A stretch of 64,000 nucleotides of DNA from Halobacterium jilantaiense (GTDB taxonomy: Archaea; Halobacteriota; Halobacteria; Halobacteriales; Halobacteriaceae). A program made the position numbers and the translations under genes. Location of the stretch: assembly GCF_900110535.1 (NCBI RefSeq), contig NZ_FOJA01000001.1, positions 1,240,001 to 1,304,000 on the forward strand. The letters are read 5' to 3'. This document shows positions 28,240-30,628 of the stretch, piece by piece. The notes under the pieces are model-generated. The model saw only the letters and a list, made by a program, of their open reading frames with translations, was not told where the DNA came from and did not search any database. Position 1 is the first letter of the stretch; each line of letters opens with the position of its first letter.

Positions 28240-28373
28240 GCCGTCGGTTCGTGGCTTCGGGGCTGCCGGCCGCCGGAAGCCGGTATCGGTCTCTTATTCG
28301 AGTCGCGGCCAGACGGTCTCACGAGCGTGGGACTGCCGTACCGAATCGCGAAGGCCAGAGGGTCGCAGAAAAT

Positions 28374-28446
28374 CCGCCCTCCCCGATTTGAACGGGGGAC
28401 AAGTCGATCTACAGTCGACTGCTCTACCAGTCTGAGCTAAGGGCGG
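28374..28446 (-). tRNA. trnY: tRNA-Tyr (anticodon GUA)
   Basis: A 73-nt tRNA on the minus strand. Acceptor CCGCCCT pairs with AGGGCGG. The anticodon stem GTCGA/TCGAC holds the loop CTGTAGA with anticodon GUA. T-arm CCCCG-TTCAAAT-CGGGG. CCA not encoded. A TATA-like TTAAATTT on the minus strand lies about 25-30 nt upstream (near 28470-28478). Confidence 0.96.
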
Positions 28447-28565
28447 ATGCACTCGAACGTAGGCCGGCGTCGAAATTTAAGGGTTATCATTCCAGTTCGG
28501 GAGACGATTGTCAGACGCGACAGCACATTTAATAAGGGGCGAAGCGGTAGTGCCTGACAACCGTC

Positions 28566-29090
28566 ATGTCGAAAGTCACGTTCCGCGCGGACGACGACCT
28601 CGTCGCTGCCGTCGAGGACCTCGACGCCTCGAAGAGCGAGGTCATGCGGGAGGCGCTTCGCACGTACCTCACGGAGAGTCGCGTGGACGCCGGCGGGTCG
28701 CTGGACGCGATGGTCGCCGATCGCGTCGACGGGCTGGTCGGGGACGCCGCCGAGCCGGCCGGCCGGTCCGGAGGCGCGCGTGACGTAAACATCAACATCA
28801 CCGTGGAGACCGACGACGGCGCGTCCGTCGACGCGGAGTCGTCGGGCACGGGTCAGCGCGCGGCCGACGCCGGCCGCGGCCGCCAGCAGCCCGGGGGGGA
28901 CGGCGAGCGGTCGTGCAAGCAGTGCGGGTCGTCGCTGTCCGGCGAGCACGTGTACTGCCCGAACTGCGGGGAGAAAGCGTCGCATCGCGTCTTCTGTGAG
29001 TGCGGCGACGAAGTTCGGGCCGACTGGGCGTTCTGCCCGCACTGCGGCCGTCGGACGGCGTCCGCAGACGCGCTCGACCGGCAGGGGTAA
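28566..29090 (+). CDS. cdrL: CdrL: ribbon-helix-helix regulator with C-terminal double zinc ribbon
   Basis: 174 residues from ATG 28566. The N-terminus MSKVTFRADDDLVAAVEDLD leads into a ribbon-helix-helix domain (residues 1-40, with KSEVMREALRTYL). A Gly/Asp-rich linker follows, and the C-terminal part has zinc-ribbon pairs CKQCG, CPNCG, CECG and CPHCG. In Halobacterium salinarum the cdrL product is known to bind upstream of the cdrS-ftsZ2 operon and control its transcription, which couples it to division. Its own TATA-like TTTAATAA (28528-28535) lies about 34 nt upstream. The zinc ribbons may bind DNA or partners. Confidence 0.92.
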   Translation: MSKVTFRADDDLVAAVEDLDASKSEVMREALRTYLTESRVDAGGSLDAMVADRVDGLVGDAAEPAGRSGGARDVNINITVETDDGASVDAESSGTGQRAADAGRGRQQPGGDGERSCKQCGSSLSGEHVYCPNCGEKASHRVFCECGDEVRADWAFCPHCGRRTASADALDRQG

Positions 29091-29105
29091 GACAGCTGTT
29101 TACAT
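29091..29105 (+). repeat. 15-nt direct repeat, copy 2 (after cdrL)
   Basis: GACAGCTGTTTACAT, identical to 28225-28239 and immediately after the cdrL stop codon. It lies upstream of the AGTTATATG TATA-like box of cdrS. Confidence 0.6.
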
Positions 29106-29113
29106 TCGCCGTT

Positions 29114-29122
29114 AGTTATATG
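29114..29122 (+). promoter_or_regulatory. TATA-like box of cdrS-ftsZ2
   Basis: AGTTATATG; the expected transcription start is 25-30 nt downstream, near 29143-29148, i.e. adjacent to the inverted repeat at 29149. That gives a long leader of about 120 nt before cdrS, unlike the leaderless genes around it. Confidence 0.55.
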
Positions 29123-29148
29123 TAGCAAGCTGCTCTGGGTACTCGTAC

Positions 29149-29166
29149 GTAAGACGGTCGTCTTAC
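29149..29166. promoter_or_regulatory. inverted repeat 1 in the cdrL-cdrS gap, likely RHH operator
   Basis: GTAAGACGGTCGTCTTAC: arms GTAAGACG and CGTCTTAC separated by 2 nt. It lies just after the predicted cdrS transcription start, a repressor-like position. The GTAAGAC word recurs twice more before cdrS. Confidence 0.6.
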
Positions 29167-29211
29167 ACAGAATCACCAGATGGCGCGGCCCCTTCGCGCC
29201 AACCCGGTGGT

Positions 29212-29247
29212 GTAAGACACGGAAGCGGGAGACCGGGTCCGTCTTAC
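29212..29247. promoter_or_regulatory. inverted repeat 2 in the cdrS leader (GTAAGAC ... GTCTTAC)
   Basis: GTAAGAC at 29212-29218 and GTCTTAC at 29241-29247, separated by 22 nt, use the same words as the repeat at 29149. In the RNA the two arms could also pair, so an RNA-level role is possible as well as DNA binding. Confidence 0.5.
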
Positions 29248-29266
29248 CAACACGGGGATACCAAAT

Positions 29267-29434
29267 ATGGAGCGTGTGACACTCCGGATTCCGGAACAGC
29301 AGATCGACGAGGTGGAACAGATGGTCGAACGGGGGAAGTTCCCCAACCGGAGCGAGGCGATTCGCTCCGCCGTTCGCGAGATGATCGACGAGCAGACGGA
29401 CCAGACCGGTCCGAAGAACTGGGCGAAGGTGTAG
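29267..29434 (+). CDS. cdrS: CdrS: short ribbon-helix-helix cell-division regulator
   Basis: 55 residues from ATG 29267, ending NWAKV. A single ribbon-helix-helix domain: strand [10 protein letters not shown], helix [11 protein letters not shown], the [14 protein letters not shown] helix, and a short charged tail. CdrS in Halobacterium salinarum regulates ftsZ2 and other division genes, and is cotranscribed with ftsZ2. Here ftsZ2 begins 4 nt after the stop. The protein is strongly conserved in haloarchaea. RHH proteins bind as dimers to short inverted or tandem sites, which fits the GTAAGAC motifs upstream. Confidence 0.93.
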
Positions 29435-29437
29435 ACG

Positions 29438-30628
29438 ATGCAGGACATCGTTCAGGACGCCCTCGACAACGCCGAAGCCGAGAAGCGCGAGATGGACGCC
29501 AGCACCGACGGCGACGAGTTCGGCGACCCCCGCATCGTCATCGTCGGCTGCGGCGGCGCTGGCAACAACACCGTCAACCGGCTGTACAACATCGGTGTCG
29601 AGGGCGCGGACACCGTCGCCATCAACACCGACAAGCAGCACCTGAAGATGATCGAGGCCGACACGAAGATTCTCGTCGGCAAGTCCCTGACCAACGGGCT
29701 CGGCGCTGGCGGCGACCCGTCGATGGGCGAGCGCGCGACCGATATGGCTCAGGGGACGATCAAGGAGGTACTCGGCGACGCGGACCTCGTGTTCGTGACC
29801 GCCGGTATGGGGGGCGGAACGGGGACCGGCGCAGCGCCGGTCGTCTCGAAGATCGCCAAAGAGCAGGGCGCAATCGTCGTCGGCATGGTGTCGACGCCGT
29901 TCAACGTCGAGCGCGCCCGCACCGTCAAGGCCGAGGAGGGCCTGGAGAAGCTCCGCGAGGAAGCCGACTCCATCATCGTTCTCGACAACAACCGGCTGCT
30001 GGACTACGTGCCCAACCTCCCCATCGGGGACGCGTTCTCCGTGATGGACCAGATCATCGCGGAGACGGTCAAGGGCATCAGTGAGACGATTACGCAGCCC
30101 AGCCTCATCAACCTCGACTACGCCGACATGACCGCCATCATGAACCAGGGCGGCGTGGCGGTGATGTTGGTCGGTGAGACCCAGGACAAGAACAAGACCA
30201 ACGAGGTCGTCAAGGACGCGATGAACCACCCGCTGCTGGACGTCGACTATCGCGGCGCGAGCGGCGGGCTCGTCCACATCACTGGCGGCCCGGACCTCAC
30301 GCTGAAAGAGGCCGAGGGCATCGCCGACAACATCACGGAGCGTCTGGACGCGAGCGCGAACGTCATCTGGGGCGCTCGCATCCAGGAGAACTACAAGGGG
30401 AAGGTGCGCGTCATGGCCATCATGACGGGCGTGCAGTCCGCGCAGGTACTCGGCCCGAGCACGCAGAAGCAGGCCGACAAGTCCCGGAAGGAGCTCCGAG
30501 ACGTCGAGTCCTCGGACTCGAAGCAGCGCGTGGCCGACGACGCGTCGACGGGCGGCTTCGGCGGTGCGCACTCCGACGGCGGTCAGGACGAGGTCGAGCA
30601 GGAGAACGGTCTCGACGTCATCCGGTAA
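29438..30628 (+). CDS. ftsZ2: cell division protein FtsZ2 (tubulin family GTPase)
   Basis: 396 residues. The tubulin signature GGGTGTG occurs in [13 protein letters not shown] (about residues 126-138); the N-terminal [13 protein letters not shown] and the T7-type synergy region ([11 protein letters not shown]) are intact. The N-terminal [16 protein letters not shown] tail and the [14 protein letters not shown] text match FtsZ2 rather than FtsZ1. FtsZ2 is the haloarchaeal homolog needed for ring constriction. The C-terminal tail ([16 protein letters not shown] onward) is disordered and acidic. The operon with cdrS explains the co-regulation. Confidence 0.95.

Follow-up and report, generated by a model that had tools for sequence, protein, structure and literature searches.

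What determines the amount of division tubulin in archaeal cells is still largely an open question. Binding of CdrL at the promoter of the cdrS-ftsZ2 operon is already known, and the short repeated words that lie between cdrL and cdrS in Halobacterium jilantaiense raise the question of what is read there, and by what. The window analyzed here, a 64-kb stretch of contig NZ_FOJA01000001.1 from a genome of 2.95 Mb, carries on its forward strand cdrL (28566-29090), whose 174-aa product combines an RHH domain with a C-terminal double zinc ribbon (Pfam RHH_1 and DZR above cut-off, CdrL_M below cut-off; class-wide CdrL profile), followed by cdrS (29267-29434), which encodes a 55-aa RHH regulator (NCBIfam TransRegCdrSHalo above cut-off), and ftsZ2 (29438-30628; Pfam Tubulin and FtsZ_C). 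Our results suggest, with reasonable though far from complete confidence, that the region ahead of cdrS-ftsZ2 is a two-level control region in which a putative DNA operator is overlaid with a conserved leader RNA.

The earlier note had described four GTAAGAC words forming two inverted repeats, and all four lie where it had placed them, at 29149-29155 (+; b), 29160-29166 (-; b'), 29212-29218 (+; c) and 29241-29247 (-; c'), with c and c' 22 nt apart. It had missed a fifth copy (29087-29093, +; a), which shares bases with the cdrL stop codon and has a degenerate partner, GTTTAC, downstream at 29098-29103 (a'). The starts of b and b' are separated by 11 bp, that is, one helical turn. These five copies are the only ones in the window; their count alone is unremarkable, as 15 of 100 window shuffles reach five copies. 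Genome-wide the word is rare (31 copies in 2.95 Mb compared with 87 copies of the reversed control word), and five of the 31 copies fall within 161 bp (expected, about 0.0017). The genome scan for GTAAGAC pairs that the earlier note had proposed returned only the two pairs of this locus when GTAAGAC-N0..30-GTCTTAC was searched, and none for the reversed control.

The earlier note had let its claim stand or fall with the conservation of the words in related genomes, and GTAAGAC was found in all 142 distinct cdrS upstream regions, where it is the commonest 7-mer and exact copies average 4.38 per 230-bp region (0.02 after shuffling), related species being counted separately in these statistics after redundancy filtering. 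The palindrome GTAAGACN4GTCTTAC is present in 314 of the 391 class genomes, once in each except G248, the sole genome with two sites, while a control match was obtained in one genome; the 30 retrieved copies all lie 119-135 nt upstream of cdrS. Since the words are short, chance or mere recent ancestry might be thought to account for them, but 71 of 84 genera keep the exact form although their flanks have diverged, which refutes this explanation and leaves it next to impossible. The spacing is likewise confined: the spacer between b and b' measures 4 nt in 119 of 140 leaders, 5 nt in 20 and 3 nt in one, and the distance from b to c is 62-68 nt in 106 exact cases. In leaders with exact copies of both a and c, a and b are 61-65 bp apart with one exception (71 bp) and b and c 62-67 bp. 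This near-equal spacing of a, b and c (61-68 bp, about six turns), absent from the earlier note, is the only one at the locus that could fit helical phasing, and it might be relevant to DNA binding.

The individual words differ in how strictly they are kept. In H. salinarum (L093) the five-word layout is retained with a one-base change in b (GTGAGAC), and Natrinema has the palindrome with a 5-nt spacer instead of the exact N4 form. Word c is degenerate in whole families; a shortened word, GTAAAC, stands at c in Haloarculaceae-type leaders (L074-L090), just as GTTTAC stands at a' in Halobacterium, and Halobaculum, Halolamina and others have no recognizable c, while c' is among the best-conserved words. 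Haloquadratum lacks both b' and c and has the direct repeats GTATGAC-N3-GTAAGAC-N3-GTATGAC, yet it retains b and c' with their GG and CC flanks.

A TATA-like AT-rich 8-mer begins 30-38 nt upstream of b in each of the 142 regions, and in H. jilantaiense this element (TTAGTTATAT) lies at 29112-29121 (+). Because of this spacing, transcription probably starts near 29144-29149, at or just before b, so that the b/b' palindrome (GTAAGACGGTCGTCTTAC, 29149-29166, +) would cover the start site. In Haloferax volcanii, a monocistronic cdrS mRNA of about 250 nt was detected on northern blots (PMC8406309), which is somewhat less than expected from the cdrS gene with a 121-nt leader. Word a and its partner a' precede the TATA element and are not expected to be part of the cdrS mRNA, and an exact word occupies the corresponding place, upstream of -150, in 99 of the 142 regions. 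In the mechanism that we propose, one RHH dimer would bind each GTAAGAC word on DNA, with b/b', one helical turn apart over the presumed start, as the main operator, a positioned upstream of TATA/BRE, and c and c' downstream; a protein bound at b/b' would be well placed to repress by hindering initiation or promoter escape.

As to the protein that reads these words, the most likely candidate in Halobacterium is CdrL. In ChIP-seq of H. salinarum CdrL the sole reproducible site was found upstream of cdrS-ftsZ2 (PMC7439475), and the location of the GTAAGAC site agrees with this peak. The published region comprises the same genes, the same intergenic region and the same five-word layout as that of H. 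jilantaiense; the text of the paper reports the peak without a motif, words, a start site, an RNA structure or the exact base position of the peak (PMC7439475), whereas the words and the RNA structure are described here, and no description of the CdrL binding site at cdrS-ftsZ2 was found in the open literature searched. A single such site per genome is what the ChIP result predicts for a CdrL operator, and cdrL lies directly upstream of cdrS in nearly all loci. Together with the position of word a outside the mRNA, these observations could be taken to mean that the locus is purely a DNA operator read by CdrL alone, any RNA fold being a by-product of the inverted words.

We consider such an operator unlikely in view of the genomes in which CdrL was not found. 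Our CdrL profile search of the 391 genomes, in which the best eight candidates per genome were scored, gave no match in 12, and 11 of these 12 keep the palindrome, nine in the exact N4 form and two in an N5 version, so the loss of the site that would be expected upon loss of cdrL was not seen. The leaders read from CdrL-less species represent seven genera, and cdrL was not found in the several kb fetched upstream of those loci that were examined. In one gapless genome (G020), all 2,085,946 bases were searched and no CdrL was found, the best RHH match having an E value of 0.014 compared with values below 1e-16 for true CdrL matches, but this genome retains the intact palindrome as a single copy. 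Likewise, in a pair of CdrL-less relatives (g18) all 35 word bases are identical, against 76% of the remaining positions. Since the site persists where CdrL was not found, it cannot owe its existence to CdrL alone, and an operator for CdrL alone would in addition leave the covarying flanks described below unexplained. CdrS and a function of the RNA are the candidates for preserving the site in these species. Words a and c were statistically associated with the presence of CdrL (Fisher p = 4e-4 and 2e-6, respectively), but this result was set aside as confounded, since exact copies of the two words are missing from most Haloarculaceae-type genomes (f2), including those with cdrL. Apart from this, a tRNA-Tyr gene lies upstream of cdrL in the window (28372-28447, -), and a sequence resembling a tRNA-Tyr gene is likewise found upstream at a cdrL-less locus (L043).

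The involvement of CdrS was approached through its known targets, with a motif rebuilt here from Haloferax ftsZ1 promoters; the published logo is available as a figure and was not compared directly (PMC8406309). These promoters carry GTCAGACN4GTCTGAC (GTCGGAC in one arm in one species) at a place compatible with the reported -50 position, and the generalized form GTNNGAC-N4-GTCNNAC occurs at 11-18 sites per Haloferax genome, compared with one for the reversed control. This symmetric 18-bp frame precedes cdrS as well as ftsZ1, hisB and panA, which are all CdrS ChIP targets in H. volcanii (PMC8406309). The shared frame, the presence of the words next to cdrS also in species without CdrL, and a 1.3-2.2-fold lower ftsZ2 expression in an H. 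salinarum cdrS deletion (PMC7439475) would all be in keeping with an autoregulatory CdrS operator that CdrL shares secondarily. This is in our view quite unlikely, as the cdrS promoter is not among the 18 CdrS ChIP sites in H. volcanii (PMC8406309) and its word is GTAAGAC in 142 of 142 regions, with A at the third base instead of the C of the CdrS boxes. The CdrS boxes also differ in being present in many copies per genome.

Both proteins resemble a regulator with a closely similar half-site. Among proteins of solved structure, NikR is the closest in sequence to CdrS and one of the closest to the RHH part of CdrL, and the strand residues assigned by alignment are R3-T5-R7 in CdrS and K3-T5-R7 in CdrL, which we take to contact DNA as in RHH proteins generally. 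The operator of NikR, GTATGA-N16-TCATAC (PMC7055735), has a half-site that differs from the cdrS word in one base; in contrast to the several words at cdrS, of which b and b' are one turn apart, its half-sites lie two turns apart with a 16-bp gap, and NikR is nickel-dependent. A more distant parallel is aCcr1, an RHH cell-cycle repressor of Sulfolobales and thus an archaeal regulator of division genes (PMC7617429), whose NCBIfam model weakly touches CdrS and CdrL, far below cut-off; it belongs to another phylum and its target is cdvA. The single-copy occurrence across the class, the 18-bp frame of CdrS targets and the NikR half-site support a putative conserved, locus-specific RHH-type operator at cdrS-ftsZ2, as the earlier note had proposed from sequence. 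Its assignment of this operator jointly to CdrS and CdrL does not hold in that form, because the 18 CdrS ChIP sites exclude the cdrS promoter and the site persists without CdrL. Within the two-level control region CdrL is the predicted reader in Halobacterium, and CdrS, with boxes of its own built on this frame, probably reads the site as well or did so in the past, which would explain the survival of the site in CdrL-less lineages.

The second level of the proposed control region concerns the RNA. In the predicted fold of the H. jilantaiense leader (z -2.6), b pairs with c' and b' with c. Stem P1 would be formed by b plus GG (29149-29157, +) and CC plus c' (29239-29247, +), stem P2 by b' plus AC (29160-29168, +) and GT plus c (29210-29218, +), and both would surround a GC-rich hairpin, P3 (29181-29201, +), of species-specific sequence that was taken from the fold of this leader. 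The 48-nt interval downstream of b' is strongly structured, with a mean fold z of -2.15 over 140 species, compared with -0.18 and 0.0 in controls and -0.84 in ftsZ2 coding sequence. The flanks were tested outside the words at fixed positions, without alignment freedom. For P2, the 10-nt flanks downstream of b' and upstream of c, matched species by species, pair with -5.70 kcal/mol, compared with -4.30 kcal/mol when permuted (equaled in 0 of 5000 permutations; 61 representatives), and the paired fraction is 0.58 in register but 0.34-0.44 when slid. For P1, the 50 distinct flank pairs all have G-C as their first pair, and in several lineages A-U takes the place of G-C in the second (GG/CC vs GA/TC; Fisher p = 1e-6, uncorrected for phylogeny). 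The covariation thus comes from the flanking pairs, the word bases hardly varying, and is weak or uninformative within Halobacterium alone. The nested fold (b-c', b'-c) has the lowest energy in 89 of 96 leaders, with a mean advantage of 5.7 kcal/mol, and is returned by RNAalifold in four of five clades, Natrialbaceae favoring b-b' and c-c'.

Such flanks point to pairing of b' with c and of b with c' in the leader RNA. The earlier note's suggestion that the second pair serves cooperative or looping regulation on DNA was not borne out, because c and c' lie between 11 and 38 nt apart depending on the species, c is degenerate in whole families, and the flanks covary. A c-c' RNA hairpin was also rejected, its flanks pairing at only 24-38%. 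The leader fold, newly recognized here as a prediction, ends about 20-32 nt ahead of the cdrS ATG, just before a GGGGA at 29254-29258 (+), a short way 3' of c' and conserved in A3, that would act as a Shine-Dalgarno-like element; the fold probably tunes translation or stability of the mRNA. The covariation and structure of the leader, and the strong conservation of c' just ahead of the ribosome site, could even suggest that the words are kept solely for RNA folding or RNA-protein recognition. We regard an element of RNA alone as very unlikely: any paired sequence would serve the stems, yet the word is invariant, word a lies upstream of TATA in the 99 regions noted above, direct repeats replace b' in Haloquadratum, and CdrS boxes share the frame. 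The account that combines both levels is preferred because invariant words and the position of a upstream of TATA need a DNA reader, while covarying flanks need RNA pairing.

Because the leader contains one and the same word four times, it could alternatively fold by pairing b with b' and c with c', and it could switch between the two folds. Attenuator-type mRNA leaders contain four segments that pair either 1-2/3-4 or 1-4/2-3 ahead of the ribosome site. The cdrS leader similarly has four segments with two pairing options in this position; it differs in having no known Rfam family, as a search of Rfam yielded no credible family and only tRNA and one weak chance match, and in that no terminator or ligand was identified. 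That four copies of a single 7-mer form a bistable RNA switch (1-4/2-3 vs 1-2/3-4) while doubling as the operator of the RHH proteins encoded beside it is unlikely; if true, a single set of words would tie the transcription of an archaeal division operon to its translation.

The two-level control region, whether or not its leader switches, bears on earlier expression data. RNA-seq and Ribo-seq of H. salinarum are discordant for the cdrS-ftsZ2 operon, which suggests post-transcriptional control (PMC8303175), and the covarying leader is a candidate explanation for ribosome occupancy of ftsZ2 not following its mRNA. The GTAAGAC words provide base-level targets, conserved across the class, for distinguishing control by CdrL from control by CdrS, and CdrL-less species represent natural controls.

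Several observations on CdrS and its boxes stand beside these results. A search for viral relatives of CdrS found none, and a search for CdrS was without a match in three genomes that are at least 90% complete (G240, G334 and G348), either because of gaps in the assemblies or because the gene has been lost. For Haloferax dacZ, a candidate palindrome was discarded, as only a single conserved GTCAGAC word is present, while in three Haloferax species (L243, L252, L261) the same type of box stands ahead of a DUF7093 protein. In Halobacterium, a GC-rich version of the box, GTGCGACGCCCGTCCGAC, is found ahead of ftsZ1 where Haloferax has its CdrS box (L212, L213; around 1116000 in the H. jilantaiense genome). 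Finally, in H. jilantaiense (978841-978858; L273) and in H. salinarum (L275), an ORF with a bactofilin domain is preceded, at a distance of 33-39 bp, by a CdrS-type box (GTCTGACGCTCGTCTGAC / GTCTGACGGTCGTCCGAC). Bactofilins are a family of cytoskeletal proteins, and judged by its box this ORF is a possible CdrS target that would link division and shape.
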